Positions 10,407 to 38,267 of a stretch of DNA of 38,268 nt are shown here, piece by piece. The translations under genes were made by a program, and so were the position numbers. The stretch comes from Spirochaetae bacterium HGW-Spirochaetae-4 (GTDB lineage Bacteria; Spirochaetota; Spirochaetia; Sphaerochaetales; Sphaerochaetaceae), in contig PGXU01000027.1 of NCBI GenBank assembly GCA_002839335.1, positions 1 through 38,268 on the forward strand, written 5' to 3'. The notes under the pieces are model-generated. The model made no database searches. It was given only the letters and a program-made list of their open reading frames with translations, and had not been told where the DNA came from. Within the stretch, counting starts at the first letter, position 1. Each line of letters opens with the position of its first letter.

Positions 10407-11222
10407 ATGTCAGACCGAACTTCTAAGATATCTACTTTGGATCGATTTATTTCCTACTTTTCTCCCACTTTCGGTATCAAGCGCATTCGTGCGAAAGCTG
10501 CGATTGATGCGTTCGCGTATGGTGGTGGAGGGTATACCGGAGCGAAAACTCGACATGGACTTTCCAATACGGTTTCCGTTGGTGATGATACCGATCATTC
10601 GTTATCAAAACTCCGATCGTATTCCCGATCGCTGGTTACCTATACCACCATTGGTGCTGGGGCTGTGTTCCTCAACGCTTCCAATACCATTGGCAGCGGA
10701 TTGAAGATGCAGCCTTCCATCGTGGAAGGCTTGGTTCCTCTATCGAAGAAACAGATAGAGGCATTGCAAACCCAGATCAAGCAACGTTGGAAACTATGGG
10801 CTGAGAGTACCGATTGTGATTACAATGGACAGTTTACCTTCAATCAGCTTCAGTTTCTCATTTACCTGAGCAAGTGGAGAAATGCATTCTTGTGGTATAC
10901 CCCGCGACGTTCCCGGGAGTATAGGGCCAGGCCATTTCTAGCACCGGTGACCGAGACGATCAAGAAGTTGGATCTGCACTTTGAAAGTGAGATTACAGCC
11001 TATGAGGTCAACTCACTGTTCGGCTTATTCATCAAGACACTTTCTGGTGATACTTCGACGATCCTAGATAAGACTCCGATCACACGCAATCCAGAAAGTC
11101 CTGTGTTAGACATTCCCGATTACTCGTTGGAACCGGGAGTGGCGCTACAGGGAATTCCTCCAACGAGGTTCTTGCGGAAATCCTCCCTGGCACCCCGTTT
11201 CCACATAACCCATCACAGATAG
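10407..11222 (+). pseudogene. Decayed phage portal protein gene (lambda-type)
   Basis: The frame encodes 271 residues resembling the portal protein of lambda-like tailed phages, the ring at the capsid vertex through which DNA passes. Family-like features are the N-terminal LDRFISYFSPTFGIKRIRAKAAIDA, SLSKLRSYSRSLV, GSGLKMQPSI, KQRWKLWAESTDCDYNGQFTF and later FLAPVTETIKKLDLHFESEI. Normal portals are about 500 residues. Roughly a hundred or more residues seem missing between the WRNAFLWY and ARPFLAP segments, and the end runs into a dispersed repeat. GGAGG precedes ATG 10407. No other capsid, terminase or integrase gene is nearby, so this is a stranded prophage relic. The start and first half are well preserved, so decay may be fairly recent. 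Confidence 0.72.
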
Positions 11223-11250
11223 CCCTGAAGTTCGTTCTCCTGGTTGAATG
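11190..11250 (+). repeat. Dispersed intergenic repeat, copy 1
   Basis: The segment containing GTTTCCACATAACCCATCAC and ending near GGTTGAATG is closely similar to 35355-35411 and more loosely to 27900-27952. This copy lacks the left part seen in the other two. It forms the end of the open frame of the portal relic, so the relic was probably cut at this point. Confidence 0.6.
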
Positions 11251-11306
11251 CGGAGTTGCTTGCTGGTCCTGCTCAATAGATGTGAATAATAGAGTGGCTG
11301 GCTGGG

Positions 11307-23705: not shown

Positions 23706-24203
23706 ACATATAAAGAGGGAGCCTTGAAGATAAATCGTTTTTGATGTCGATAATTGAAACGCATGAAGGGAAAAGTCGTTCCTTTCGCGCCTGCTGACTG
23801 ATCGGTAAAACCGTTGAACTCAAGCTTGATTTGAAAGTTCCTAACCGGATAAGGTCCTTAGGGGTTTAGGTGTTCTTGCAAAAAAAAAATAAAATCCTCA
23901 ACATTTTTGAACCTCTAAATTTTTATAGCTATTTCTTGCATTCCTTCCCTAACGAGGATTTTGCGAAAATCCTTCCTGACACCGAGTGTCGGTGGGATGA
24001 CCATGCACGATGGTTCTTTCTGCCTTGGGTAGCATAGGAGCCAGACCAAAGGTTTCCACTATATCGCCAATTGGTCTGTTTCCACTTCTTCCAACCATTG
24101 GTTTCACATATCTGGGAATGAGGCTTCAAGCAACATCGCTTTCCCTGATAGGATGAACTTTGCATGATGGAAGGGAAGTCCCTGTCAACCTGAGTGCCTG
24201 CGT
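23706..24203. other. Non-coding stretch with two adjacent palindromes
   Basis: No gene is recognised. A run of ten As lies near 23880. Two small palindromes stand side by side: AGGATTTT-GCG-AAAATCCT at 23955-23973 and GACAC-CGA-GTGTC at 23978-23990. Minus-strand frames across 23930-24165 are open for up to about 78 codons but match nothing I know. The palindromes resemble ends of a small mobile element or a regulatory site, but the evidence stops there. Confidence 0.4.
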
Positions 24204-24725
24204 TCAGGATTGTTCGTGTGCTTCAAGGATGTGATGGGAAACCATATCACTCAAGCACATGACCTTGCTGCCTTTGCTTTCATAGTAACGCAACATCTCA
24301 TCAATTTTGCGTGTATCATAGCTGGTGATGCAATCCGATAGGACAGTGACGCCATATTCTGCTTTGCATAAGTTGTAACAGGTTGATTTCACGCAAGCGA
24401 CAGCATCCGCTCCTGCTATGTAGAATTCTCCTATTTCATGCTCAATGATGAACTTTGTAAACTCTTCACTGCTTAATGCGTTCCCTTTGTATTTCGTGAA
24501 CACATGTTCCGACACAATGTTCAAGTCTGAAACGAATGCTGCCCCCCGTGTCCCGGGTTTGAACGTCCTCGTTCCTTCGGATAGATTCTCATGCCTGATA
24601 TACACAACATGAATATTGGATTGTACTGCCCAATCAATAGCTTTATTGATAGTGCCGATGACATCCTTGTAGTTCTTGGTTATGTCATTTTGTATATCGA
24701 TTATTACCAAGGCTTTCTTCTGCAT
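24204..24725 (-). CDS. Cysteine hydrolase (isochorismatase family)
   Basis: A compact 173-residue hydrolase of the isochorismatase/nicotinamidase superfamily. The catalytic triad is clear: Asp10 in VIIDIQND, Lys78 in HVFTKYKGNAL and Cys111 in AGADAVACVKST, with the preceding Val-Ala expected to form the family's cis-peptide. Length and layout are closest to small amidases that cleave C-N bonds. AGGAGG lies upstream of the ATG at 24725. It diverges from a WYL-domain regulator gene, with a palindrome in the shared control region, so it is probably the regulator's target. The substrate is not determined by the sequence. Confidence 0.87.
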   Translation of the reverse strand: MQKKALVIIDIQNDITKNYKDVIGTINKAIDWAVQSNIHVVYIRHENLSEGTRTFKPGTRGAAFVSDLNIVSEHVFTKYKGNALSSEEFTKFIIEHEIGEFYIAGADAVACVKSTCYNLCKAEYGVTVLSDCITSYDTRKIDEMLRYYESKGSKVMCLSDMVSHHILEAHEQS

Positions 24726-24776
24726 CGTGATTCCTCCTGATGGGTTGCTTTGTCTCTTGGTTCATTGTACTGTGCA

Positions 24777-24802
24777 ATTGTTGACAACAGTATGGCAACA
24801 AT
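24777..24802. promoter_or_regulatory. Candidate operator in the divergent cysteine-hydrolase/WYL control region
   Basis: ATTGTTG (24777-24783) and CAACAAT (24796-24802) form a perfect 7-bp inverted repeat around 12 bases. A third half-site gives TGTTG-A-CAACA at 24779-24789. The cluster overlaps a TTGACA box at 24781-24786 that would serve the plus-strand regulator. The site is probably bound by the adjacent WYL regulator. Confidence 0.5.
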
Positions 24803-24844
24803 ATACAGCAGTAGCAGAAAAAGTTTCGTACCATTGGTGATCAG

Positions 24845-25786
24845 ATGAAAGTTGACAGGCTTGTAAGTATTATTATGATACTCCTGGACAAAAAACGTAT
24901 AGGCGCACAGGAGTTGGCCGATATGTTTGAAGTCTCGCTGCGCACTATCTACCGCGACATCGACACTATCAACAGGGCAGGTATTCCCGTTCTATCAACG
25001 CCGGGAGTGGGTGGTGGCTTTGAGATCATGCAGGAATACAAGCTTGATAAGAAGGTTTTTTCGACTGCCGACCTATCCGCCATCTTGATGGGGCTTTCCA
25101 GTCTCTCCTCCATGATCCGAGGTGATGAACTGGTGAACGCCCTTGCGAAGGTCAAGAGTTTCATCCCCACCGAGAGAGCGAAAGACATTACCCTGAAAGC
25201 CAATCAGATATGCATAGATATGAGTCCGTGGATGGGCAACAGGAACGTACAACCCTATTTGAAGATACTGAGAACCGCATTGCAAGAGAGCAAGCTGCTT
25301 TCCTTTACGTATGCCGACCGCTACGGGAATAGAACCACACGAACAGCCGAACCATATCAGCTTGTTCTGAAAAGCAGTCATTGGTACTGGCAAGGATATT
25401 GCCACACACGAAATGATTTCCGCTTATTCAAACTTGCCCGCACAGCAAACCTGCAAATCCTTGAAGAGACATTTACTCCTCGAGAGAATCCAAAACCACA
25501 GTTGGATATAACGGATATGGTGGAAACACTGCAAACAGAAATCAGAATTCGCATCCATAGATCAGTCATGGACAGGGTGCTCGAGTATTGTACGTATGAT
25601 CACTTTTCGCCAGACGGTGAAGAGCATTACCTTGTCGGCTTTCCCTTCATAGAGAATGATTATTACTACAATATCCTGTTCGGTTTTGGAGATGCATGCG
25701 AGTGTCTGGGGCCCTTGCACATCCGTACAGAAATCAAGCGTCGAATACATGCCATGGCTACCTTGTACGAAAAGGAGACTGGTTGA
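24845..25786 (+). CDS. YafY-type transcriptional regulator with WYL domain
   Basis: A 313-residue regulator. The N-terminal DeoR-type helix-turn-helix spans about 1-60 (RIGAQELADMFEVSLRTIYRDIDTINRAGIPV), followed by a linker ending in the WYL ligand domain near 140-230 with LSFTYADRYGNRTTRTAEP, SSHWYWQGYCHTRNDFRLFKL and a C-terminal extension. WYL domains are thought to sense nucleic-acid or small ligands. ATG 24845 has only a weak ribosome-binding site. The next gene, a Crp/Fnr-type regulator, starts one base after its stop, so two regulators are cotranscribed. Confidence 0.9.
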   Translation: MKVDRLVSIIMILLDKKRIGAQELADMFEVSLRTIYRDIDTINRAGIPVLSTPGVGGGFEIMQEYKLDKKVFSTADLSAILMGLSSLSSMIRGDELVNALAKVKSFIPTERAKDITLKANQICIDMSPWMGNRNVQPYLKILRTALQESKLLSFTYADRYGNRTTRTAEPYQLVLKSSHWYWQGYCHTRNDFRLFKLARTANLQILEETFTPRENPKPQLDITDMVETLQTEIRIRIHRSVMDRVLEYCTYDHFSPDGEEHYLVGFPFIENDYYYNILFGFGDACECLGPLHIRTEIKRRIHAMATLYEKETG

Positions 25787-25787
25787 A

Positions 25788-26384
25788 ATGGTCAACAAAT
25801 ATGTGGAAACACTCCTTGAAAAGGCTGATGGTCTATCGGACGAGGAGAAGCAAACTCTTGCCGAAAGTCTCCCTGTAAAGACCTATGGCAAAGGACATCA
25901 TCTTCTTAGGCAGGGTGAACCGTACCGGGAATGTTTCTACATTTTCAAAGGGTGTATACGTCAATACTTCCTGGACGATAGTGGTAATGAGAAGACAGTT
26001 GCCTTCTTTACAGAAGGAGATACCGCCGCACTCCTAGATGCCGATTATCTGAAGAACCCTTCTCCCTACTTCTGGGAGTGCACGGAAGAAAGTACGGTTC
26101 TTGTAGGGGATCTTACCAATGAATCGGATATTCTTGATCGGTACCCCTCCCTCCAGAAGCTGATCAGACAAATGCTTGAGGAGAATTTGGGGAAATCACA
26201 GGCGTCCCTTACTACTTTTATATCCTCAACTCCCGAACAACGGTACTTGAACCTGATTCATACCCGGGCGGACCTTCTCGAGAGGGTCCCCCAGTATCAG
26301 ATTGCGAGCTTTCTTGGAATAACGGCAGAATCATTGAGTCGTATCAGGAAACGGCTTTCCTCTTCGTTTTCCCTCCCCGAATAA
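25788..26384 (+). CDS. Crp/Fnr family transcriptional regulator
   Basis: A 198-residue cyclic-nucleotide-binding-type regulator. The sensor beta-barrel covers about 20-120 (KGHHLLRQGEPYRECFYIFKGCIRQYFLDDSGNEKTVAFFTEGD). The C-terminal helix-turn-helix is VPQYQIASFLGITAESLSRIRKRL, near 170-193. No Fnr-type cysteine cluster is visible, so oxygen sensing is unlikely. The start is ATG 25788, one base after the WYL gene; the longer frame overlaps that gene. Its 3-prime end overlaps the convergent membrane-protein gene by 41 bases. Its target may be that gene, though this is only proximity. Confidence 0.88.
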   Translation: MVNKYVETLLEKADGLSDEEKQTLAESLPVKTYGKGHHLLRQGEPYRECFYIFKGCIRQYFLDDSGNEKTVAFFTEGDTAALLDADYLKNPSPYFWECTEESTVLVGDLTNESDILDRYPSLQKLIRQMLEENLGKSQASLTTFISSTPEQRYLNLIHTRADLLERVPQYQIASFLGITAESLSRIRKRLSSSFSLPE

Positions 26385-27024
26385 TCATCCAGAGTGCGAA
26401 TACCATCTCTCCAAGGGTCATCGGAATAGCAAGGATCGATTCGAGACGGCCGGTGAAATCTGAGAAGCGCGGAAGAAAGCCCTCCATTGTGTGTATCAGC
26501 AAGTAGGAGACACCCGCTGCAAGCAGAAGGATACCAAGTACTTTATTTTCATATCTGAAGGACGCAACAGATAGCAGGATCAGGTGGATTCCAAACACTA
26601 TGAGTCCGAAAGACCAGATTCGGTCGAAACGTGTCAGAAGTAACATGACTCTCTGTGTGTTTCCACCCTGGACAGATGAAGATACGGCAACGAGTTGAGA
26701 TACAGCTGCAGCCAGGATCACGGTATAGATCACTCTGAGTCCAGCTGTCATGGCAGAGAACCCCATGTTTTCATTCCTGAAATAGTGGAAGATACCCCAA
26801 CTGACCAACAGGTCTGTTATGATGATTACTACCCAGAAGAGGATTTCCATGTACCATTGTGAGAGGTTTGCTCGTAGGTTGTCCATGGTTTGTTCTGCCT
26901 GAGATATGTCGATGAGTGTGGAATGGATCGCACCGAAAGCGATTCCTGCAGCCACTGCCATGACCAGCAGCGAGATACCAATCACGAGTGCGGTCGACCG
27001 TTTGTTTTCTTTGTTTATAGTCAT
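26344..27024 (-). CDS. DUF4386-like integral membrane protein
   Basis: About 226 residues with six or seven hydrophobic helices: ALVIGISLLVMAVAAGIAFG near 11-30, EILFWVVIIITDLLVSWGIFHYF near 62-84, and further helices to the basic tail RGGKTKRKAVS. The layout and the segment VYTVILAAAVSQL fit the DUF4386 family, which has no known function and is often next to stress or Crp-type regulators. The ATG at 27024 follows AAGGAGAT; the frame extends 17 codons further without a better site. Its end overlaps the Crp/Fnr gene tail to tail, so the two transcripts are antisense over 41 bases. Confidence 0.75.
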   Translation of the reverse strand: MTINKENKRSTALVIGISLLVMAVAAGIAFGAIHSTLIDISQAEQTMDNLRANLSQWYMEILFWVVIIITDLLVSWGIFHYFRNENMGFSAMTAGLRVIYTVILAAAVSQLVAVSSSVQGGNTQRVMLLLTRFDRIWSFGLIVFGIHLILLSVASFRYENKVLGILLLAAGVSYLLIHTMEGFLPRFSDFTGRLESILAIPMTLGEMVFALWMIIRGGKTKRKAVS

Positions 27025-27262
27025 TTCCGGATCTCCTTGTATTCCCAGTATAGGCGATGAAGAAAATTGGTTCATTGACTTTCATCAATGAGTTCTAGGA
27101 AGACCAGTGGAAATTACCATGATAACCTCAGGAAGAGCATATCGATTTGGCTTATTGAAATTTCTGGATAGTCGAAAGGACCCTTCTCAATACAACAATG
27201 AATTCGTATTGCATCCATTTCCACCTGATGGTATATTGGCAAATCTATCTGGGAGGGCAACC

Positions 27263-27670
27263 ATGAAACACACAGGGTCATGTCTTTGTAAGCGTATTGC
27301 CTTTGAGGTTGAGGGGGAATTTGAAGATTTCTATCTTTGTCATTGTTCCCGTTGTCGAAAAGATACAGGATCGGCTCATGCATCCAATTTGTTTTCTTCT
27401 TCAGCAAAACTCACATGGATTTCAGGAGAGGAGCAGGTGAAAACCTATCGGGTTGAAGGAACCCATCATTCAAAGAGCTTCTGTCCACACTGTGGTTCTG
27501 CTCTTCCCACATTGCAAATGGGGGGCTCCTTATTGGTGGTTCCTGCGGGATCACTGGATTCAGATCCCCACATTTCTCCCAAAGGACACATATACGTGGA
27601 AAGCCGGGCTTCATGGGACAATAACTTGGAGAAGATCCCACAGTATCCACAACAACCCCCTGCTTTATAA
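27263..27670 (+). CDS. GFA family protein (glutathione-dependent formaldehyde-activating-like)
   Basis: A 135-residue zinc-binding protein of the GFA/CENP-V fold. Cysteine pairs are CLCKRIAFEVEG near 7-18, CHCSRCRKDTGSAHASN near 27-43 and FCPHCGSALP near 73-82, the standard pattern for two zinc sites. Most bacterial members have no proven substrate. I chose ATG 27263, which follows GGGAGGG; the longer frame from 27107 adds residues unlike the family. It stands alone, with repeats and non-coding DNA downstream. Confidence 0.85.
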   Translation: MKHTGSCLCKRIAFEVEGEFEDFYLCHCSRCRKDTGSAHASNLFSSSAKLTWISGEEQVKTYRVEGTHHSKSFCPHCGSALPTLQMGGSLLVVPAGSLDSDPHISPKGHIYVESRASWDNNLEKIPQYPQQPPAL

Positions 27671-27865
27671 AGCGCCCTGAAGTCAACACCAGAAATCCAA
27701 AATATTGGAGGGACTGTATGAGTGCCTTCCCTACAGTAGAATTGGAGAAACCTACGTCTTGAACAGGAAATCATCCGATTTGGGAAAATTGAAGAGGCTG
27801 TGACTGTTACTTGGGAGGGGCCTCGGATTAAGGGAAGGTTAAGCGTGTGCTTCACTTTCCTCCTC

Positions 27866-27952
27866 AACGGGAGTTATGCATAAATACTTCCCGATACCAT
27901 GTTTTTACATAATACATCAGGAATACCCTGGAAGCTCGTTTCTTGAGCTGAA
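27866..27952 (+). repeat. Dispersed intergenic repeat, copy 2
   Basis: AACGGGAGTTATGCATAAAT, then ACTTCCCGATACCATGTTT, aligns almost without gaps to 35323-35360. The right part is weaker (ACATAATACATCAGGAATACCC against ACATAACCCGTCACAGACAGCC). Downstream it is followed by CTGGAAG as in copy 3. Confidence 0.65.
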
Positions 27953-27985
27953 GCTAGAATAATTTTTTTATGGTATTGGAAGTCG

Positions 27986-28017
27986 CCCAGGGTTGATTGA
28001 TTTCAAGCAACCCTAGG
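27986..28017. other. Stem-loop downstream of the aldolase gene
   Basis: CCCAGGGTTG (27986-27995) pairs with CAACCCTAGG (28008-28017) with one mismatch around a 12-base loop. It lies past the end of the minus-strand operon. On the minus strand it is followed by an A-rich run rather than T-rich, so it is not a standard terminator there; it may still block 3-prime decay. Confidence 0.4.
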
Positions 28018-28128
28018 CAGATGAAGAATGAACTCTTTTTTCCCAATTGCCATAATATGCTTGTTATGGATATGATCCACCCACTAGTGTGGCAAGTTAA
28101 AGTTTTGTCACGGGCTTTATCAGAAAGA

Positions 28129-29001
28129 TTAAAGCCAAGACTCAACTATTTTCAGAGCTTCCCGAACATTTCCCTGCTGTTGATTACTCAACGGTAAGAA
28201 TGGTCGCCGGCATGGTCCACAAGGAACACCCAATACCTCCATAGCATATTTTGCCGCTGAAAAAATACCGTTCTCCACCAACGCTTCAATGAAAGCATTT
28301 AAAGTGGATTGGACCTCCCTAGCCTGAGTCAAATCACCATGAGTAAACCGATCACGAATCTCCTTGAATATTCGTGGACAGATATTTACCGTTGTACCTA
28401 TCGTGGCATGTGCCCCGGCAGTCATACTGTAGAGGTACATCTCATCAAACCCGTTGTACAGGATTTTGTCGGGGAAAGCTTCGTGTATGCGTTCCAATTC
28501 ATAGAGATTCATTGAGGTGTGTTTGATCCCAATGATCCTGGAATCGTTGAGGAGAGATGAATTCATCTTCTTGGAGAAGGTAATACCCGTAAACTGGGGG
28601 ATGTTATATACAATTACACCAATATGTAAAGCTTCCACAACCGAGCGATAATGGTGTTCGACCTCCATGGGTGTGTAGCTGTAGTAGATAGGTGGTATGA
28701 GCGAGACGGCTTGGGCACCACAAGCTTGGGCATGGATGGATAAATCAACCACCGAAGCAGTGCTTAAAGCTCCAGTATGCACAATGAACGGCACTTCGCC
28801 TGACACCTCGGAGGCTACTACTTCCACCAATCTCTTCCTTTCGTTCCTCTCCAAGAGCAGTCCCTCGCCAGAGGATCCGCAACAATAGAAGCCTTCAACT
28901 CCCTGGTCCAATTCATAGTTTACCAACTTTACAAGAGCCTGTTCGTCAAGGTTTCCCTGTTCATCCACAGGAGTCAATAGGGCTGCATAGATTCCATTCA
29001 T
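28129..29001 (-). CDS. NanA-like aldolase (DHDPS/N-acetylneuraminate lyase family)
   Basis: A 290-residue class I aldolase. Schiff-base Lys160 lies in GIKHTSMNLYELERI and the catalytic Tyr132 in VYNIPQFTG; GSSGEG at 42-47 binds the keto-acid carboxylate. LYNGFDEM and the run to the C-terminus resemble N-acetylneuraminate lyase more than dihydrodipicolinate synthase. Family members cleave sialic acid or 2-keto-3-deoxy sugar acids to pyruvate and an aldehyde or sugar. With an enolase-type dehydratase in the operon, a 2-keto-3-deoxy acid is the more likely substrate here, and no sialic-acid kinase or epimerase is present. ATG 29001 follows GGAGAAG. Last gene of the minus operon. Confidence 0.85.
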   Translation of the reverse strand: MNGIYAALLTPVDEQGNLDEQALVKLVNYELDQGVEGFYCCGSSGEGLLLERNERKRLVEVVASEVSGEVPFIVHTGALSTASVVDLSIHAQACGAQAVSLIPPIYYSYTPMEVEHHYRSVVEALHIGVIVYNIPQFTGITFSKKMNSSLLNDSRIIGIKHTSMNLYELERIHEAFPDKILYNGFDEMYLYSMTAGAHATIGTTVNICPRIFKEIRDRFTHGDLTQAREVQSTLNAFIEALVENGIFSAAKYAMEVLGVPCGPCRRPFLPLSNQQQGNVREALKIVESWL

Positions 29002-29106
29002 CACTTTACTTCTCCATATATAGTTGCATTTCCACCAGATTCCCAGGCTTCAAGGCCAGATTTGATCATCCGGTTAATCAGATCTACTTTAAATTACAAG
29101 AGGCAA

Positions 29107-29937
29107 TTACCAAGCTGTCCAACCACCATCCACAACCAGATTCGCCCCTGTCATATATTTTGATGCATCGGAAGCGAGAAAAATAACAGCACCATTGTAT
29201 TCGTCAGCCTGCGCCATTCGTCCCATGGGCATACGCTGGCAGTAGTTTCTTTGGAATTCCTCATCTTGCGTTTCTCTAAAGACACCAGAAGGGGTAAGGA
29301 TGTTCACGCGTATTCCAGATCTTCCCCAGTAGGTAGCGCAATAGCGGGTTAGATTGTATAGCCCGCTCTTGGCCGCCGAATAAGCCACTGGCTTGATAAA
29401 TGGAACGCCAGTCTTCTCCTTCTTATATGCATAAATGTCTTGCACCGGACTCACCATTCCGTAGATGGATCCGATATTGATAATCGATCCCCCGCTAGTA
29501 TTGGCAATCATTAAAGCTCCTACTGCTTGGGTCATGAGGAAGGTGCCCACAAGGTTGACTTCAATGACTTCCCGGAACACTTCCTCGGGAAACTGTTCGA
29601 AAGGACCCGAAACCTCGGGAGGCGCACTGGGCTGGGTATCAATACCTGCGTTATTCACCAGAACTTCTGGAGTCCCCCACTGTTGTACAACTTCCTTAAG
29701 ACCACGATCGATAGATGCCTTGTCGGCAATATTGACAGAGTGTATTGAAAGATTTTCGCTTGCAGCAAGTTCTGGGCCAAAGACAGCTAGCTTTCTTTTT
29801 TCGTCTGCCGAGCGAGAAAAAATAGCGATTCTTGCTCCACGTTCATGGAATTCCTTTACGAATTCGGCACCAATTTGGCCAAAGCCCCCAGTGATTACGA
29901 TAATTTTCCCAGTTATATCAAATAAGGTATCTTTCAT
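29107..29937 (-). CDS. SDR family oxidoreductase (sugar-acid type)
   Basis: A 276-residue short-chain dehydrogenase. Cofactor loop TGGFGQIG lies at 16-23, NNAG follows in the middle, and YSAAKSG holds the catalytic Tyr and Lys. The unusual insertion before it (YAYKKEKTGVPFIKPVA) and the end DGGWTAW resemble uronate/gluconate-type sugar-acid dehydrogenases such as those annotated D-mannonate oxidoreductase. GGAGG precedes ATG 29937. It lies 20 bases after the dehydratase gene and 105 bases before the aldolase, in a transport-dehydration-cleavage operon. It may interconvert a sugar acid and its keto form before dehydration. Confidence 0.87.
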   Translation of the reverse strand: MKDTLFDITGKIIVITGGFGQIGAEFVKEFHERGARIAIFSRSADEKRKLAVFGPELAASENLSIHSVNIADKASIDRGLKEVVQQWGTPEVLVNNAGIDTQPSAPPEVSGPFEQFPEEVFREVIEVNLVGTFLMTQAVGALMIANTSGGSIINIGSIYGMVSPVQDIYAYKKEKTGVPFIKPVAYSAAKSGLYNLTRYCATYWGRSGIRVNILTPSGVFRETQDEEFQRNYCQRMPMGRMAQADEYNGAVIFLASDASKYMTGANLVVDGGWTAW

Positions 29938-29957
29938 GGTTTTCCTCCAGCACACAT

Positions 29958-31055
29958 TTAGGTAGTGAGTCTATCATAGTTGAGTTTCAAACCGATTCCC
30001 GGGGTCTCTGGGATGGTCAAAATGCCGTTTTTGGGCATGGGTGGGTCGATAAATGCAATATTCGAGACCTCTTCGAACATGAAGAGTCGTTCTAAGAAAA
30101 TTCCGTTTGGAGCAGGAGAGAGCACATGCATGTGCATGTATTCCATTCCATGGGGAGCGAAGTAGATATTCCAAGCCTGGGCCATGGCAATTATCTTCTG
30201 CATTTCGGTGACTCCACCGCACCGAGTGACATCACACTGCAAATAGTCGACAGCATTATTAATCAGTAGATCCCGTACTCCGAAACGAGTATATTCATGC
30301 TCACCGGTACCGACGGGTGTACGGGACATGGAACGGAACCGTGAGAGTCCGGGAATGTCGTCTGCAAACACCGGCTCTTCAAAAAATATGATATCCAGTT
30401 CTTCCAAGCGTTCGGCCAACTGTATAGCCGTAGCAGCGGTGAAGGCGTTGTTTGCATCCACCATCAATCCGATTTTTGGTCCTATTGCGTCACGAACAGC
30501 TTGTATTCTAGCAACATCTTCCCCAAGGTTCTTGCCACCGTCGACTCCTACTTTCAGCTTTATCTGTTTATACCCTTTGGCAACCATGTCCAAAGCTTCG
30601 GCAACCAGTTCGTCTTTTGTATAACTGGTCCAACCACCACTTGCGTAAATCGGCAACTCTGTACGGGAACCACCAAGGAGTCGATAGAGAGGAAGTCCAA
30701 CCATTCGGGCCTTGATGTCCCATAGGGCTATATCGATTGCGCTGTAGGCGCAGAAGGCAAGTCCTTTTCTTCCGACACCACGCATGTAATGGAAGATTTC
30801 TTCATAGATGGATTCGGTCTCAAAAGGATTTCTTCCAAGAATTTTCGGTCCAATACCTTTTAGCACCATCTCGCGAATAGCTTCACCGCCGACCTCATGG
30901 TATGTGGTTCCTATACCCTTTAGCCCGTCATTCGTAGTGATTTCCACAATGACATAGCCGATGGTTTCAACGTTCCTGGTAGAGTCGGCGAAATTACCCT
31001 TTATCCTAGTCTCCACAAGATAGACTTGAATATCGCTTACTTTAGTACGCAACAT
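29958..31055 (-). CDS. Enolase-superfamily sugar-acid dehydratase (mandelate racemase type)
   Basis: A 365-residue protein of the mandelate racemase/muconate lactonising branch. The catalytic KxK is Lys166/Lys168, metal ligands are Asp200, Glu226 and Glu252, and the His-Asp dyad of the mandelate racemase subgroup is seen as Asp275 and His302 (APHGME). The branch dehydrates sugar acids to 2-keto-3-deoxy acids or racemises alpha-hydroxyacids. GGAGG precedes the ATG at 31055. It follows the TRAP permease by 19 bases. With the aldolase downstream, dehydration of an imported sugar acid is the simplest reading. The exact sugar acid cannot be read from the sequence. Confidence 0.9.
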   Translation of the reverse strand: MLRTKVSDIQVYLVETRIKGNFADSTRNVETIGYVIVEITTNDGLKGIGTTYHEVGGEAIREMVLKGIGPKILGRNPFETESIYEEIFHYMRGVGRKGLAFCAYSAIDIALWDIKARMVGLPLYRLLGGSRTELPIYASGGWTSYTKDELVAEALDMVAKGYKQIKLKVGVDGGKNLGEDVARIQAVRDAIGPKIGLMVDANNAFTAATAIQLAERLEELDIIFFEEPVFADDIPGLSRFRSMSRTPVGTGEHEYTRFGVRDLLINNAVDYLQCDVTRCGGVTEMQKIIAMAQAWNIYFAPHGMEYMHMHVLSPAPNGIFLERLFMFEEVSNIAFIDPPMPKNGILTIPETPGIGLKLNYDRLTT

Positions 31056-31074
31056 ATGTTCCTCCGTTTAATTA

Positions 31075-32352
31075 TCAACCAACTACCGAGGGCAACCATG
31101 TTGCCAGTCCCGGTATGAATGTGATCAGCAAAAGTGAAATGAATAGAGCAGGGAGATAGATGAGTATACCGGTGTACATATGGGTCAATTTCAGCTTAGC
31201 CACATTTGAGGTGACGAAGAGTGTCATACCTACCGGAGGGGTGACCAGACCTACACATAAATTGATAATCACCACGATACCGAAATGTAAAGGGTCGATG
31301 CCAAATTGGAGGGCAACTGGAAGCAATATCGGAACCATTATTAGCAAAGCTGGTGATTGGTCAAGCAGCATACCTACTATAAGAAGTAGGAAATTGACAA
31401 ATAGAAGGAAAAGCAACGGCGAATTGGCATAGTTGAGGAAGAATGCGGTTACCGTTTGAGGGATCCGCAAGGCAGTGATGACCCAGGCCATTGCCGTTGA
31501 GATGGCAATGATCACCATGACGTTTGCGGTGGTCTTGGCGGTATTCACCAGTGCTTGGTAAAAATCCTTCCAGTTCAAGGTCTTCAGAATGAACTTTGTA
31601 ACTAGAAGTGCGTACAATACTGCAACAGCGGCCGATTCTGTAGCAGTGAAAATACCCGAGACGATTCCGACAATAATGATAATCGGAAGGAGAAGGGATG
31701 GTAGCGTCTGGACAAACGAGTTCCATACCTCTCTCAGAGTGGCTGCCCTTTCCGATTTAGGGTAATCGTTTTTCTTGGCAACGATGAATACAGTAATTAT
31801 TTCAGCGATTCCAATGAGCAGGCCAGGTACGAATCCGGCTAGGAACATCTCACTAACCGATACATTCCCGGCAACGACAGCGTAAATGATCATAATGGTA
31901 CTTGGGGGAATGATGGGGCCTATGATAGCCGAGGCAGCGGTGGTTGATGCTGCGAATTTCTTGGGGTAGCCGGCGGTCTCCATCATGTCTATCTCGATCT
32001 TTCCCAGTCCGGCAGCATCTGCAGTCGCCGATCCACTGATCCCTGCGAAGAAAATTGACGCGAGTATGTTGACGTATGCTAATCCGCCGGTGATGTGACC
32101 CACGAGATTGTTGCAGAAATGGACAATCCGCTGGGTGATACCCCCGGTAGTCATGATTTCACTGGCCAGTATGAAGAGGGGTATTGCCAAGTAGACGAAA
32201 TTATCGACACCGGTGAACATTTTCAATGGGATTATCTGAAGATTGCCTCCAAGAACGCCAAAAGCGAAGATGCTGGTGATACCCATGGAAAAGAGCACAG
32301 GTAAGCCAATCAACATGGTGATGATGAAAAACAATAATATGATAAAAGCCAT
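31075..32352 (-). CDS. TRAP transporter large permease (DctM family)
   Basis: Large membrane subunit, 425 residues. Signatures are VYLAIPLFILASEIMTTGG, FFAGISGSATADAAGLGKIEIDMM and GPIIPPSTIMIIYAVVAG, with LGLVTPPVGM-like text near the end. It belongs with the small permease directly upstream (13-base gap) and the binding protein at 32942. It is diverged from both other DctM proteins of the window, so the three transporters serve different solutes. Confidence 0.93.
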   Translation of the reverse strand: MAFIILLFFIITMLIGLPVLFSMGITSIFAFGVLGGNLQIIPLKMFTGVDNFVYLAIPLFILASEIMTTGGITQRIVHFCNNLVGHITGGLAYVNILASIFFAGISGSATADAAGLGKIEIDMMETAGYPKKFAASTTAASAIIGPIIPPSTIMIIYAVVAGNVSVSEMFLAGFVPGLLIGIAEIITVFIVAKKNDYPKSERAATLREVWNSFVQTLPSLLLPIIIIVGIVSGIFTATESAAVAVLYALLVTKFILKTLNWKDFYQALVNTAKTTANVMVIIAISTAMAWVITALRIPQTVTAFFLNYANSPLLFLLFVNFLLLIVGMLLDQSPALLIMVPILLPVALQFGIDPLHFGIVVIINLCVGLVTPPVGMTLFVTSNVAKLKLTHMYTGILIYLPALFISLLLITFIPGLATWLPSVVG

Positions 32353-32365
32353 GTTTAACCTCGTC

Positions 32366-32905
32366 CTATTCGATAGTTCGTGATTCGAATGGTGCTATTT
32401 CTCCAACCGCCACCCCAATGATCTCCAAGATAGTCTCATAGGAGAGAAGGAGAATACCAATCATGGGAGCGGAAAACAGAATCCACCCGGGTGCCCTCAA
32501 TGTCGAGGAGTGGAAACGGGCATTTTGTTTGATCACCTGCAGTGAGTAGATAAACACCACTGCGAGGAAGACAATCACCAATATGCGGGAGATGTAGTAC
32601 ATGATGGTACGGTTTCTTATGCCCAGTTTATCGTAGATGTAGTTGATTGAGACCATGGAACCTTCGCGAAAGTTTACCCCGACTATAATGTATACCGTCC
32701 ACACGAGGAGATACCTAGCGAACTCTTCTGTAAATGGAAATGAGAAAGAGAAGTATTTTACGATCACGAATCGATACAACACCTGAAATAACAGCGTAAG
32801 GAAACAAATCAAGATGAAAAGCGCACTTACAGCTTCAAGTCCTTTTGCCAACATGGCCGAGCCACTATTCAGTTTTCTGTATATTCTTTTGCCTGGACTA
32901 TCCAT
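32366..32905 (-). CDS. TRAP transporter small permease (DctQ family)
   Basis: A 179-residue small permease with four hydrophobic helices and the DctQ segment FPFTEEFARYLLVWTVYIIVGVNFREGSMVSI near 58-89. GGAG lies upstream of the ATG at 32905. It sits 36 bases downstream of the binding-protein gene, with no hairpin between them, unlike the operon at 13694. Confidence 0.88.
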   Translation of the reverse strand: MDSPGKRIYRKLNSGSAMLAKGLEAVSALFILICFLTLLFQVLYRFVIVKYFSFSFPFTEEFARYLLVWTVYIIVGVNFREGSMVSINYIYDKLGIRNRTIMYYISRILVIVFLAVVFIYSLQVIKQNARFHSSTLRAPGWILFSAPMIGILLLSYETILEIIGVAVGEIAPFESRTIE

Positions 32906-32941
32906 GCAAGTACGCTCCTTTACACCAAATTTCTTTTGAGA

Positions 32942-33973
32942 TTATTTGCGATATGCGTCGAGCGCATCAATCAATGAATCGACCATCTTGTCACCAATTT
33001 CTGCTCGGACAAACGACTGGGTCGCGTTGAAGATGGTGCTGTGCCAAGTCTCCAAGGCTTCTGCTGTCGGCTGTGTGACTATCATACCTTGTTTCTTAAG
33101 GAATTCCAGTCCTTCTTTGTTGCGGATGGCAATGACATCGTTGGCAGCTTTTGTTGCCAATTTCGATCCTTCCATAACAACCTGTTGCAGGTCCTCGGGA
33201 AGCGATGTGAATACACCGTCATTGATGATGTAAGCCATGATGGAGGCCATATGTCCATCCAAGGTCAGGTACTTCTGTACTTCGAAGGTTTTATCCTGGA
33301 TGATATTGAGGATGGGGTTTTCTTGACCATCGACCACGCCGGTTTTCATAGCCATGTACATTTCAGATCCCGGCATAGGTACAGCTCGGGCGCCCATGGC
33401 TTCAACCATTCGGACGGATACCGGATTTTCCATGACACGGAATGTGATGCCGCGGGTGTCTTCCATGGTCTTCACTTCTCGGATCTTATTGGTAAAGTGT
33501 CTGAATCCATTTGAACCAGTGTTCATGATTCGTATGTTCGCTACATTGTTGACCTCTTCAAACATTGATTGTCCCCATTCTCCGTTTAGGACATCATTGC
33601 ATTCTTCAATACTGCCAAAAAGTCCGGGGATGGACAACAACATGGTCGGCTTGTAGATATTGTTAAGCATGCTGATGTTGATCACAGCCATTTCTATGGC
33701 TCCAGAAGAGACACCCTGCACAAACTCCGCGGCGTTGCCGAGTTGTCCGCCGGGGTAGATATCCACAATGATTCTTCCCTTGGACTGCTCTTCAACATAA
33801 TTCTTGAACACTTCTCCATACATGACATCGGGACTGTCGTTGGGGTCCATCGCTGTCGGGGTGTAAGCGAGTTTCAGGGTGTAGACCTTGTCTGCTTTAT
33901 CGACGGTTCCCTGCGCAAATAACAGCGTTGCGCTTGCAATGACCAATAATGCAATTGTCAAAGCTTTTTTCAT
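32942..33973 (-). CDS. TRAP transporter solute-binding protein (DctP family)
   Basis: A 343-residue periplasmic binding protein with signal peptide MKKALTIALLVIASATLLFA (1-20), cut before QGTVDKAD. Family marks are VDIYPGGQLGNAAEFVQGVSSGAIEMAV, ITFRVMENPVSVRMVEAMGA with the carboxylate-binding arginine, and GVVDGQENPI. GGAGG precedes the ATG. The palindrome at 34022-34038 lies 49 bases upstream, as expected for IclR control. It is the first gene of the six-gene minus operon. A carboxylated sugar acid is the likely ligand. Confidence 0.92.
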   Translation of the reverse strand: MKKALTIALLVIASATLLFAQGTVDKADKVYTLKLAYTPTAMDPNDSPDVMYGEVFKNYVEEQSKGRIIVDIYPGGQLGNAAEFVQGVSSGAIEMAVINISMLNNIYKPTMLLSIPGLFGSIEECNDVLNGEWGQSMFEEVNNVANIRIMNTGSNGFRHFTNKIREVKTMEDTRGITFRVMENPVSVRMVEAMGARAVPMPGSEMYMAMKTGVVDGQENPILNIIQDKTFEVQKYLTLDGHMASIMAYIINDGVFTSLPEDLQQVVMEGSKLATKAANDVIAIRNKEGLEFLKKQGMIVTQPTAEALETWHSTIFNATQSFVRAEIGDKMVDSLIDALDAYRK

Positions 33974-34283
33974 TTTCTTCCTCCTTAGGATGCTTCTGGC
34001 ATCGTGATAAAATAGTATGATGTTCTACAATACAGAACAGCATGCTAAATAAAATAACGCTATGCAAATTCTAGAAGAGGTCTGGGTATCTGTCAACAGT
34101 TTTTTTAGGGAAATTGCGTAAAGAAACGCCTTGGATTGAGAAGGATACAAATGGTTCGGACAGAAGAGACGACAATGTTGAATATTCCCAACCTGCGGGA
34201 GCTTCCATGAACGAAACGCAAATGTGTGTACGCAAAGAGAATCGGATCACAATCGCAGGGGTACTATATTTAGATTGTTGCGT
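33974..34283. other. Control region between the IclR gene and its TRAP operon
   Basis: About 310 bases with no supported gene. It holds the palindrome at 34022-34038 near the operon and a TTCTAGAA palindrome near 34068. The rest is the untranslated tail after the IclR gene; no strong terminator is seen, so read-through from the regulator into the operon is possible. Confidence 0.5.
34022..34038. promoter_or_regulatory. Operator-like palindrome upstream of the TRAP/dehydratase operon
   Basis: GTTCTACAATACAGAAC has GTTCT/AGAAC arms. Read toward the operon it gives CTGTTCTGTAT followed by AGAAC, matching site B at 4290-4306 over those parts. The adjacent IclR gene is the likely source of its regulator. 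No clear -35/-10 pair could be assigned beside it. Confidence 0.6.
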
Positions 34284-35051
34284 CTATGTCCTATTCCGTA
34301 TTTCGAAAGACGCCGATATCAAGTTGCGTGCCAATCTTTCAATATCGTCATCAGGAATATGTTGCACGGGGCCCGAGACACACATGCCTCCTATCAGCCG
34401 CCCGTCACGTGCTCTCACGGGAACACCGATACATCGTATCCCTTGCTCGTGTTCGCTATTATCTACAGAGTAACCCCGAGAGGCTGAAAGTTTAAGGTCC
34501 CGCATCAACTCCTCTACCGAAGTTAGGGTGGTCTTGGTGAAAGGAACCAGGTGGTCGTCAAGGTGGACGGAGACCTCCTCTTTAGGAAGAGCGCTGAGTA
34601 TGGCCTTACCCAGGGAGGTGCAGTAGAGCGGGGCTTTTTCCCCCATAAGGGATCGCACCAGATAGTCGTTGCTTATGCTCTTGGGATAAGTGTTGTACAG
34701 ATAAAGGACCTGTGTTCCATGCATGACACCAAAGAGAACAGCATGATTGAGTTCGTTGGAAAGACGTTGCATGATCTGCATGACAATCGCCTGATATTCT
34801 ATCCGGCTGGTAATGACGTATGAGAATTCCAACATCTTGAGGGAAAGCCGATAATGATCTGTCGTAGGATTTTTCTCGACATAGCCGGCTGCTACAAGGG
34901 TAGAGATCATGTTGAAAACATTGCTCTTGTTCAGGTCCAGTTTTTTCGCAATTTCAGTTATACCGAGGTCAGGGGTCTTTGCAGTAAAGCACTCCAGTAT
35001 CTTAAGACACTTATATAATGATTTGACTTTCACTTCACCTGTATTTTCCAT
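34284..35051 (-). CDS. IclR family transcriptional regulator
   Basis: A 255-residue IclR protein. The winged helix covers about 8-72 (LYKCLKILECFTAKTPDLGITEIAKKLDLNKSNVFNMISTLVAAGYV). The effector domain carries MGEKAPLYCTSLGKAILSAL and YSVDNSEHEQGIRCIGVPV. It resembles the IclR protein at 7189 strongly in the reading helix, less in the effector domain, so the two may share operators but answer different effectors. GAGG precedes the ATG. Its promoter (AGTCAA/AGAATA read on plus) overlaps a 17-bp palindrome at 35065-35081, which fits autorepression. It is upstream of and codirectional with the TRAP/dehydratase operon. Confidence 0.92.
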   Translation of the reverse strand: MENTGEVKVKSLYKCLKILECFTAKTPDLGITEIAKKLDLNKSNVFNMISTLVAAGYVEKNPTTDHYRLSLKMLEFSYVITSRIEYQAIVMQIMQRLSNELNHAVLFGVMHGTQVLYLYNTYPKSISNDYLVRSLMGEKAPLYCTSLGKAILSALPKEEVSVHLDDHLVPFTKTTLTSVEELMRDLKLSASRGYSVDNSEHEQGIRCIGVPVRARDGRLIGGMCVSGPVQHIPDDDIERLARNLISASFEIRNRT

Positions 35052-35064
35052 TATTCATTACCTC

Positions 35065-35081
35065 GTTCTCTATTAGAATAC
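35065..35081. promoter_or_regulatory. Operator-like palindrome over the IclR gene promoter
   Basis: Read toward the gene it is GTATTCTAATAGAGAAC. Its central 15 bases, TATTCTAATAGAGAA, are identical to site A at 4271-4285 and lie in the same orientation relative to the gene controlled. It covers the -10 box. Confidence 0.65.
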
Positions 35082-35103
35082 ATGGTAAAAATAATTTAGT
35101 CAA
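35075..35103 (-). promoter_or_regulatory. Sigma-70 promoter of the IclR gene
   Basis: On the minus strand TTGACT (35103-35098) and TATTCT (35080-35075) are 17 bases apart. The -10 box falls inside the palindrome 35065-35081, so a protein bound there would block RNA polymerase. Confidence 0.65.
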
Positions 35104-35613
35104 AGCTAATTGAAGAAACCTCGCTTCGGAAGGACCTGAAATCAAGTGTCGAGAGTTCCTTCGGCGGAGAGTAGGTGGAGAAGTATAGGAAACAAAATTT
35201 TCTCAAGTTACAGGATTGACCAACAGTTTCAAGAGAGGGAGAGGTAGTCGGATATCAAAATGATGTGGACGCCATGGTGACTGATGTTAGGAACTGGTTT
35301 TGGTCTGGGCCTTCCCTTCTCGAACGGGGGTTATGCATAAATACTTCCCGACACCATGTTTCCACATAACCCGTCACAGACAGCCTGGAAGACTGTTTTT
35401 TGGGTTGAATGAGCATATTTTTCTTGGTACCGGGAGTCTCGTTCTTCTTTCCTTCCATCAAGAAGACCTGCAGCATCTGGAGGTGGGTCCCATTCTACAG
35501 GTGTCATCCAATCTGGGCTTTTTTTTGCAATCGAGTACACCCGAAGGCCTTTTGTGATACTCGAAATAGAGGAATATACCAAGCTCGTGCTATACTCGAG
35601 CAAGGAGTAAACT
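35104..35613. other. Non-coding stretch before the nitrilase-family gene, with a dispersed repeat
   Basis: No gene is supported. It contains copy 3 of the dispersed repeat (35323-35411), a run of eight Ts near 35519, and just before the gene a TATACT box near 35590 without a convincing -35. The octamer ATACTCGA occurs twice, near 35558 and 35590. Confidence 0.45.
35323..35411 (+). repeat. Dispersed intergenic repeat, copy 3 (best preserved)
   Basis: This copy spans both parts: the left part AACGGGGGTTATGCATAAAT shared with 27866 and the right part GTTTCCACATAACCCGTCAC shared with 11197. Within it GGGTTATG and CATAACCC form an 8-bp inverted repeat around about 29 bases, as in a small mobile element or a folded transcript end. 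Confidence 0.65.
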
Positions 35614-36579
35614 ATGGAAAAAATAAAGGTCGCGAGTGTACAGTTCCAGCATGCTGCTGGCGACAAAGCACATAATTTGCAGACGATAACTTCGTACGTG
35701 GAGCAAGCAGTACAGCAAGGGGTTACCCTCATAGTGTTTCCTGAAATGTGTATCACCGGATATTGGCATGTACGAAATTTGGATGAACAAGAAGTCCGTC
35801 AGCTGGCAGAACCAGTACCTTCAGGCCCATCAAGTACGTACCTGGTTCAGCTTGCAACTACTCATCAGATGACGATAGGAGCCGGGCTGATTGAAGTTTC
35901 ACCAGAGGGTAAGCTGTTCAATACCTATGTGGTGGCTCTTTCGGATGGCACGGTACACTATCATAGAAAACTGCACACCTTTATCAGTGCCTATATGCAG
36001 AGTGGGGATTCCTACACCGTTTTTGATACACCTCAGGGAGTAAAAGTGGGGGTTCTGATCTGTTATGATAACAATATTGTAGAGAACGTTCGAATAACCG
36101 CCTTAATGGGGGCAGATGTGCTGCTTGCTCCACATCAAACAGGGGGATGTGACTCGGCGAGTCCTAAGGGGATGAAACCCATTGATGTAACCCTATGGGA
36201 AGAGCGAGCGAATAGGGAAGAAGAACTCAGAGCAGAATTTCAAGGGCCCAAAGGAAGAGGTTGGTTGATGCGTTGGCTTCCCTCTCGCGCCCATGATAAT
36301 GGAATATTCCTTGTATATAGCAATGGGGTGGGGCGAGATGACGATGAAGTTCGCACCGGTAACGCCATGATTTTGGACCCCTATGGTGAGGTTTTGGTTG
36401 AAACAACTGCAGTTGGGAATGATATGGTTATCGCAGAGCTTGATCCTTCACTCCTCTCTCGTAGTACTGGGAGGCGATGGATGAAGACGAGACGGCCTGA
36501 TCTGTACGAAATGCTTACCCATCGTATTGGGAATGAAGAAGATACGAGGACTGTACGATTCTCCTATGAGGCGGATTAA
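35614..36579 (+). CDS. Carbon-nitrogen hydrolase (nitrilase superfamily)
   Basis: A 321-residue amidase-type member of the nitrilase superfamily. The catalytic triad is Glu44 in VFPEMCITGY, Lys119 in HYHRKLHTF and Cys150 in VLICYDNN; a second conserved Glu is likely in the loop after Lys119. The layout is that of aliphatic amidase or N-carbamoyl hydrolase relatives, cleaving an amide or carbamoyl group in the cytoplasm. AAGGAG precedes ATG 35614. It seems monocistronic. Its stop lies eight bases from the end of the convergent truncated RloB-like frame, so that frame may have been cut by the rearrangement that brought this gene here. Confidence 0.87.
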   Translation: MEKIKVASVQFQHAAGDKAHNLQTITSYVEQAVQQGVTLIVFPEMCITGYWHVRNLDEQEVRQLAEPVPSGPSSTYLVQLATTHQMTIGAGLIEVSPEGKLFNTYVVALSDGTVHYHRKLHTFISAYMQSGDSYTVFDTPQGVKVGVLICYDNNIVENVRITALMGADVLLAPHQTGGCDSASPKGMKPIDVTLWEERANREEELRAEFQGPKGRGWLMRWLPSRAHDNGIFLVYSNGVGRDDDEVRTGNAMILDPYGEVLVETTAVGNDMVIAELDPSLLSRSTGRRWMKTRRPDLYEMLTHRIGNEEDTRTVRFSYEAD

Positions 36580-36586
36580 CCAATTT

Positions 36587-36745
36587 CTAACGGCGGAGTG
36601 CAATGCTGGTTGAGTAGATAGGTTGTAGAGAATGGATGGTCACGAAGAAATCCTCCTCCTCCAGGTACCGGTTCAGCTCTTGGATATATGCCTTCTCGGA
36701 AGCTCCCTCACACACGATGATTATGTTTCGATTTTGTATATACAC
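36587..36745 (-). pseudogene. Truncated TOPRIM/RloB-like partner of the AAA ATPase
   Basis: A minus-strand frame of 52 codons, too short for usual gene calling. After GTG 36745 it reads NIIIVCEGASEKAYIQELN and on through a charged helix (NRYLEEEDFF), then stops at 36587. The strand followed by EGASE is the metal-binding motif at the start of TOPRIM and RloB-type nucleases, which usually run to about 200 residues. AGGGAAGG, lying at the ATPase stop, serves as its ribosome-binding site, and the gap to the ATPase gene is 16 bases. This matches two-gene AAA ATPase plus RloB/TOPRIM modules linked to phage defence. Three quarters of the protein is lost, so the module is probably inactive. A TTG at 36748 is an alternative start. 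Confidence 0.65.
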
Positions 36746-36761
36746 CAATTAGCCTTCCCTG

Positions 36762-37970
36762 TTAAATATATGAATGGGGGATCCCTGAAAAGGTTCCATC
36801 AAGATACTGTTTCCTGAAGTTGGTCACATTCCTAACACCTTCGAAGTCGGATATCCGCTTGAAAACCGTCCCTCTCTTCAATGTCCTGTTTACGATTCCA
36901 ATTTCGGATACCCGCATCATGTCCTGCTCCATGATATCCGTATTGTGCGTAGTGAAAATCAGCTGTGCATTGGATGTATTGTACCTTCTGTCCTTGAACA
37001 TCCTCACAATCTCTGCAAATAAATACGGGTGGAGAGAGTTCCCCAGCTCATCGATTACAAATATGTTTCCCCTTCTTAGTGCAGTGAGCACAATCCCGAG
37101 CAAACATGCAACTCTCTGAGTCCCCAAGGATTCTTCATTAAAATTAAATTGCACCTCATTTCCAAGAACATCTTCGTGATATGAATTGATCTCGGTTGCC
37201 ATTTTACCCAGCGTATCCTTCTTATATTCCATGCGTGTGATATCGATATCCAATTTCCGCAGGATCGTGACAATATCTTCAAAGGCTTTTTGCGTATCTA
37301 CTTCAGTGTTTGTATTCGCCAATCTGTCCAACCCAAAAGAAAAGGGGAAGTTGTTATCTGAATACACCTCAAGATTATTGGTGATGAATCCATATGCAAT
37401 TGTCAAAGAGTCATTCAATCCTGCATAGTTCTTTCCAACAACTGTGATGAATGGAGTGGTGAACTGTCGTTGTTGATCCAGGCATTCCACCGAGAATATG
37501 GTTTCAAGTTTCTTGGATGAATATACCTCGGTAGCTAAGGCTGTGAACGATGTGGTCCTGTTCGTGATGGAAAAAACGATCTCGCTGTTCTCTACAAGTT
37601 TCTCAGTTACGATCTCCTCCCTGTTTACTTCCAATATATACAGGAACCTCCTGCCTGCTTTCAGGAATTCGAGCTTGAACGAAGTGATATCGTCCTGAGG
37701 ATGCAATTTGTTGGGGGAGACGGTATTCGGGGTGTACCTGTCTCTGATGATCCTGACAAGAGATCCAAAAGCTTTTACGATGTTGGATTTTCCCGAGGCG
37801 TTCGCCCCGTATATTGCCAGACACGGGATGGTCCGGGCATCACCTTCTTCCATGAATGGTAACAATTCCATCTGTCTATGCCCGTTTGGGGCCTTCTTTT
37901 CCGCATACGTCATGGGAATAGTGAGGTCGAGGATCGATCTATAATTTTTAACTTTGAGCGACAATAACAT
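36762..37970 (-). CDS. AAA family ATPase (RloA/AbiL-type, ABC-like head)
   Basis: A 402-residue ATPase of the AAA_15/AAA_21 group. It starts MLLSLKVKNYRSI, the typical first strand. Walker A is GANASGKS at 55-62, the signature-like region is NEESLGTQRVACLLGIVL, Walker B is IFVIDELGNSLHP and a switch histidine lies in LIFTTHNTD. This is the architecture of SMC/RecF-like heads used with nuclease partners in defence modules. I chose ATG 37970, which follows AAAGGAGAG; the frame runs 23 codons further upstream without a good site. The partner gene directly downstream is truncated, so the ATPase may now be an orphan. Function as phage defence is inferred from family and layout. Confidence 0.87.
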   Translation of the reverse strand: MLLSLKVKNYRSILDLTIPMTYAEKKAPNGHRQMELLPFMEEGDARTIPCLAIYGANASGKSNIVKAFGSLVRIIRDRYTPNTVSPNKLHPQDDITSFKLEFLKAGRRFLYILEVNREEIVTEKLVENSEIVFSITNRTTSFTALATEVYSSKKLETIFSVECLDQQRQFTTPFITVVGKNYAGLNDSLTIAYGFITNNLEVYSDNNFPFSFGLDRLANTNTEVDTQKAFEDIVTILRKLDIDITRMEYKKDTLGKMATEINSYHEDVLGNEVQFNFNEESLGTQRVACLLGIVLTALRRGNIFVIDELGNSLHPYLFAEIVRMFKDRRYNTSNAQLIFTTHNTDIMEQDMMRVSEIGIVNRTLKRGTVFKRISDFEGVRNVTNFRKQYLDGTFSGIPHSYI

Positions 37971-38078
37971 ATATTTCCACTCTCCTTTGGGATTCATGTA
38001 CAGTATCATGTTAAAATTCGAGGATGTAAAGATAAACAAAAAAACTGTTTATCTTGCAAATTTGCCGACTCCGTTGTA

Positions 38079-38267
38079 CTACTTGCCTGGAACCCTCCCC
38101 AGTGCCGATACCGCTCGATGAATGTGGTGAATATTGTCTAGGCTGTAGTTTAGCTGGGGCGCGATTAGGTCCCAACGCATGAGGGTGAACTTTCGTCCTA
38201 TACTGTTTCTCGGATTTTCCAAGCAGTTGTGTGGGAAGAGGGAAGGCTGCGCCGGCTCGCTTCCCAT
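38079..38267 (-). CDS. Unrecognised open frame at the window edge
   Basis: A minus frame of 62 codons runs to the end of the window and may continue beyond it. Its end reads RKFTLMRWDLIAPQLNY, then SLDNIHHIHRAVSALGRVPGK. The composition is protein-like, perhaps the C-terminal part of a larger protein such as a transposase, but I recognise no family. It could equally be chance. Confidence 0.25.
   Translation of the reverse strand: MGSEPAQPSLFPHNCLENPRNSIGRKFTLMRWDLIAPQLNYSLDNIHHIHRAVSALGRVPGK

Follow-up and report, generated by a model that had tools for sequence, protein, structure and literature searches.

Gene pairs of the type analysed here are already known, and the copy in our window (the whole stretch of 38,268 nucleotides studied) is an ordinary decayed module. 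TOPRIM nucleases carry a Glu motif and a DxD motif, and in the AbiL system of Lactococcus (AbiLi/AbiLii) the gene for such a nuclease follows that of an ATPase. For the NetFlax AAA D29:TOPRIM D44 toxin-antitoxin pairs, PMC10440598 gives the AAA partner as the antitoxin in the assayed pairs; in its E. coli assays, AAA partners neutralise RloB-type TOPRIM toxins. In PARIS, AriA sequesters AriB until triggered (PMC12409363), and PMC9122126 describes PARIS, too, as cargo of prophage and satellite hotspots.

In the window, a frame of 52 codons plus stop, the truncated nuclease gene (36587..36745, minus strand), stands behind an AAA ATPase gene. Its GTG start, common to the window and relative G001, lies 16 nt past the ATPase stop and has just 5' of it the Shine-Dalgarno-like AGGGAAGG, which would correspond to the ribosome-binding site that an earlier note on this DNA had placed at the ATPase stop. 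That note had read all 52 residues as the start of an RloB/TOPRIM nuclease. This holds for the first 32 codons (36650..36745, minus strand; 96 nt), which DNA match to G001 contig C17 and protein matches identify as an RloB/AbiLii-type TOPRIM nuclease N-terminus with a VCEG motif, but not for the remainder, where 20 of the 52 residues are non-homologous. TOPRIM motif 1 (the Glu within VCEG) is the only one kept; the DxD is gone.

The makeup of the frame follows from two matches to G001 C17, which lie 23 kb apart on that contig. Positions 36650-38104 match C17 6142-7653 except for a 57-nt gap at 37202/37203, and the hydrolase region 35500-36620 matches C17 30197-31316 (92.9%; 94% for 35603-36620 against 30300-31316). 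The 29 nt between the two are filler, so the frame takes its first 96 nt from the nuclease and its last 34 nt from the chromosomal flank. The junction sequence (36621..36649) has no full match among the loci compared, and none longer than 13 nt among those outside the window's own genome; the flank end (36587..36620) gives the frame its last codons and stop. Behind it, on the chromosomal side of the junction and outside the module, is a carbon-nitrogen hydrolase gene (35614..36579, plus strand; Pfam CN_hydrolase, 1.4e-47).

Profile searches of the fragment, as the earlier note had proposed, gave weak matches: E=0.017 and 15.8 bits to Pfam RloB (PF13707), under the curated cut-off of 31.5 bits, and E=0.0012 to PADLOC AbiLii, with no match to the PADLOC AriB model for the fragment or for two full-length relatives tested. 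Its identity was settled because relatives were compared, and this comparison was decisive. Of 14 other subfamily loci, 11 have a tblastn match to the first 31-36 residues of the frame directly 3' of the ATPase, which rules out a chance ORF; G022 has 21 residues of the nuclease start behind its ATPase, and the shorter stumps of G194 and G047 come to light by alignment only. The fragment is 94% identical over 33 aa to the nuclease of G001, itself frameshifted, and 85-88% identical (E about 1e-16 to 1e-17) to the intact nucleases of G032, G058 and G062.

The close relatives found are Spirochaetes, including Sphaerochaetaceae and Spirochaetales assemblies, and a search among them for the full-length partner and the deletion point located both: seven loci of relatives have an intact nuclease of about 192-205 aa at the same place. 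These partners, together with the relatives' matches, bear out the proposal of a nuclease remnant behind the ATPase, and a partner of ~195 aa in the same position upholds the layout of a two-gene defence module whose nuclease has been cut off. Three of five full-length relatives reach the RloB cut-off (33.5, 33.7 and 41.9 bits; the other two score 25.8 and 25.0), and AbiLii matches the two full-length nucleases tested in part (2.5e-8 and 1.9e-7). The DxD, at positions 71-73, is invariant across four aligned full-length nucleases. PDB sequence searches found no relevant relative, and AlphaFold gave poor models both of a full-length relative nuclease (4 sequences, mean pLDDT 39.8) and of the window ATPase (8 sequences, pLDDT 39.5).

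The ATPase gene (36762..37970, minus strand; 402 codons from ATG) is AbiLi-like by PADLOC (2.5e-68), with a Pfam AAA_21 match at 1.1e-29 and a further PADLOC match to AriA at 4.2e-30; a TTG start upstream (38039) is not conserved. It had been described as apparently intact, and its frame is indeed open, with the nucleotide-binding motifs, which we take to be Walker A/B, signature and H-loop, kept in the alignment. However, it lacks an in-frame segment of 57 nt (19 codons) at 37202..37203 (minus strand) that all 13 other full-length copies have, residues 5, 31 and 327, otherwise invariant among 14 sequences, are changed, and the -35 element is altered. Relatives vary in the deleted segment, which a degenerate copy in G187 lacks as well. 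The family promoter reads TTGAC[A/T]-17-GATA[C/A]T, and its counterpart in the window is a promoter-like TTTACA-17-GATACT (38002..38030, minus strand), in which TTTACA replaces the TTGAC[A/T] of the other full-length copies. Over the -35 lies a 10-nt inverted repeat, AAGATAAACA-N7-TGTTTATCTT (38029..38055, minus strand), that is conserved in relatives; a script gave it as the best palindrome in 16 of 17 upstream regions, two of which (L107 and G007c) belong to one phage, and in the remaining region it can be made out by eye. Its conservation suggests a repressor from outside the ATPase-nuclease pair. A plasmid search with the ATPase returned 140 records, every one below 60% identity.

The pair is found in prophage context in L107, L108 and G007, that is, in two IMG/VR contigs and one genome, where it is flanked by a DUF1492 regulator (phrog_36) and, on the other side, by HNH, small terminase, S-adenosylmethionine synthetase and methylase genes. 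Directly upstream of the window ATPase is a remnant of this phage regulator (residues 99-134 of 142; 38088..38195, minus strand; 55.6% identity), of which G194 keeps 57 residues. Since the regulator tail is kept, the window locus is a fragment of such a prophage, and the module is cargo stranded from a prophage rather than an operon native to the chromosome. Two further copies of this phage backbone, with other cargo where the pair would be, lie in the window's genome, and the backbone is also found elsewhere. Prophages of G000, G001 and G007 (L122, L123, L124, L125 and L126) have other genes at this site between regulator and HNH/terminase, possibly defence or other accessory genes, and two or three full or partial regulator copies surround cargo genes at L122 8156-10438 and L044 4824-8486, as if cargo were swapped by recombination at the 3' part of the DUF1492 regulator. 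The window's genome also has more pairs of an ATPase and an RloB/TOPRIM-like gene (L090 418-2435, L091 2455-4459, L092 3515-5402 and L121 3947-5929). Of these, the C64 pair is intact, the C12 nuclease is interrupted by an in-frame TAG, the nuclease-like partner on C91 is without the first Glu motif, and the C73 pair is OLD-like, a label given by eye.

A survey of 139 genomes of the family yielded 14 full-length ATPase loci of the subfamily in 12 genomes, a count that leaves aside G047 (at a contig edge, 73 aa) and the two viral contigs (L107 equals G007:C18). The nuclease is intact in seven (G032, G058, G062, three loci of G007, and G052) and broken in the other seven: the window, G066 (a stump plus a frameshift), G001 (a frameshift near codon 91), G070 and G193 (one 431-bp deletion in common), G022 and G194. 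These amount to six events, or five if the G001 frameshift, seen in a single metagenome-assembled contig, is a sequencing error; G047, cut by its contig end, looks like one more loss. All 14 ATPase frames are uninterrupted. If inactivations fell by gene length (about 600 versus 1263 nt), the chance of six out of six in the nuclease would be near 0.001, an arithmetic estimate. Searching the 139 genomes with the nuclease found no intact nuclease without an ATPase, and decayed nuclease pieces without one in G003 and G024 only; a looser ATPase search added, apart from G047, no further piece above 52% identity among the matches listed. Both genes of the pair are decayed in G193:C168 and G187:C209. 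Such one-sided loss would result equally if selection favoured the ATPase, if it acted against the nuclease, or if loci in which the ATPase breaks first were lost fast.

We consider it probable that the window holds a dead defence module with the gene of its antitoxin or sensor ATPase left over. The pair would be AbiL-like, an AAA ATPase (sensor/antitoxin) with an RloB-type TOPRIM nuclease (toxic effector), delivered by a Sphaerochaetaceae prophage. In a living copy, the ATPase would be expected to restrain the nuclease until a phage signal arrives, whereupon the nuclease would halt growth; this step of restraint and release is drawn from PARIS and from published assays of AAA/TOPRIM toxin-antitoxin pairs. 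The window's nuclease gene would have been joined after codon 32 to the hydrolase flank by a rearrangement that removed the rest with its DxD active site, and the ATPase, simultaneously or later, would have been shortened by 19 residues, with partial loss of the promoter consensus. Because AAA partners act as antitoxins in the literature, toxin-first loss is the expected death route of such a pair, and the order of decay fits it: seven of 14 loci are broken with a full-length ATPase, and none of the reverse kind was seen in the 139 genomes. Against a dead module, the ATPase frame is open with its motifs kept, the missing segment, being variable and absent from the degenerate G187 copy, may be a tolerated loss, and the gene does not look obviously neutral. 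Its omega against G001 is 0.164, and on the window branch 14 synonymous changes stand beside 9 nonsynonymous ones, of which three fall at otherwise invariant positions; this count excludes 35 differences that could not be polarised. The earlier note had left the choice between a dead module and an ATPase now acting alone; the former fits the window best, and the latter remains for the family.

An ATPase acting alone could be kept as a solitary antitoxin (anti-addiction) that would neutralise the AbiL nuclease of related prophages and so spare the host, a reading that we regard as unlikely for the window. Intact copies of the pair do circulate on prophages, orphan antitoxins provide a precedent (PMC7354431), and the nuclease was lost in separate events with the ATPase never interrupted. 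Comparison of G070 with G193, which have the deletion in common, gives an ATPase omega of 0.165 (p=4.4e-5 against 1), and that of G058 with G062, whose nucleases are intact, gives 0.137. In a branch model of 13 loci (G052 left out), omega is 0.104 on nuclease-less tips, which include time before the loss, and 0.139 elsewhere (LRT p=0.054); tip omega is not raised, so there is no sign of relaxed selection on the ATPase in nuclease-less lineages. However, the omega test is not clean, because the module also recombines between strains, as sequence divergence shows: between G058 and G062, dS is 0.053 in the ATPase, 0.004-0.020 in downstream genes and 0.076 in the upstream gene. Further evidence against a kept ATPase comes from the damage to the window ATPase and its promoter, from the failure to find an intact close nuclease in the window's genome, and from the copies decayed in both genes and the nuclease remains without an ATPase noted above. 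We also think it unlikely that hosts have time and again domesticated AbiL-type ATPases of prophages as solitary antitoxins, dropping the nuclease and retaining the ATPase to silence the abortive-infection nuclease of related prophages (an "anti-Abi" gene derived from the sensor of the system itself). Among the open-access papers listed on AbiL/RloB, orphan antitoxins and Sphaerochaeta prophages we found no report of an orphan AbiL ATPase.

Blocks of window 24201-38104 are collinear with G001 C17 in permuted order, so this region was rearranged after the split of the two species. The junction might instead be an assembly artefact, a misjoin of the hydrolase flank and the nuclease, with the nuclease intact in the cell; in favour of this are the draft state of the assembly (143 contigs), a contig end as close as 230 bp upstream of the ATPase frame, and the block order differing from that of G001 C17. 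We find this very improbable, as the 29 non-matching nucleotides at the joint would be unusual for a k-mer misjoin, the assembly (99.86% complete) has no second copy or leftover nuclease part, and the same kind of loss occurred independently in relatives. A tandem-duplication origin of the junction, in which an intact copy would lie elsewhere, is likewise disfavoured, the G001 match stopping at 38104 with different flanks beyond and no second copy. The nuclease breaks off at nt 96 of the gene in the window, at nt 106 in G070/G193 and at about nt 120 in G066, end points that lie close to one another; we do not claim a breakage hot spot near codon 33, as the stumps of G194, G022 and G047 stop at other places, at about nt 26-62 as taken from the alignment. 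A dispersed repeat of about 100-260 bp occurs at window 11155-11267, 27725-27984 and 35178-35438 and at several places on G001 C17. It is barely credible that the 52 codons encode a small protein with a function of its own, as a mini-TOPRIM or a regulator: the frame retains a start codon and Shine-Dalgarno-like sequence, and short stumps persist in other species, but their ends differ by lineage, save for the one deletion common to G070 and G193, and its sequence is in good part non-homologous, without the catalytic DxD.

The five or six one-sided losses with the ATPase kept offer natural pairs, intact prophage copies against orphan chromosomal ATPases, usable to ask whether the AAA antitoxin of an Abi system outlives its toxin and protects against it. 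The Sphaerochaetaceae prophage cargo site, from the DUF1492 regulator to HNH/terminase, can be mined for defence genes.

Set against the described systems, the pair resembles AbiL of Lactococcus in gene order, in the AbiLi match of its ATPase and in the AbiLii matches of the two full-length nucleases tested. It differs in that the family's AbiLii match is partial and the family pair sits on prophages, and in that the window, with 32 codons of nuclease and an ATPase lacking 19 residues, has no complete AbiLii downstream. The RloB family and the NetFlax AAA D29:TOPRIM D44 pairs (PMC10440598) are like it in that most of the five full-length relatives pass the RloB cut-off; unlike the NetFlax pairs, the window copy is without a toxin. 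PARIS also combines an ABC/AAA ATPase with a TOPRIM effector, and the window ATPase matches AriA; yet that ATPase scores far better with AbiLi, and the nuclease is RloB-like, with no AriB match. Orphan antitoxins and anti-addiction modules (PMC7354431) resemble the window in having a partner gene without its toxin and relatives of the toxin on mobile elements, but the partner here is an AAA ATPase whose neutralising role is putative.
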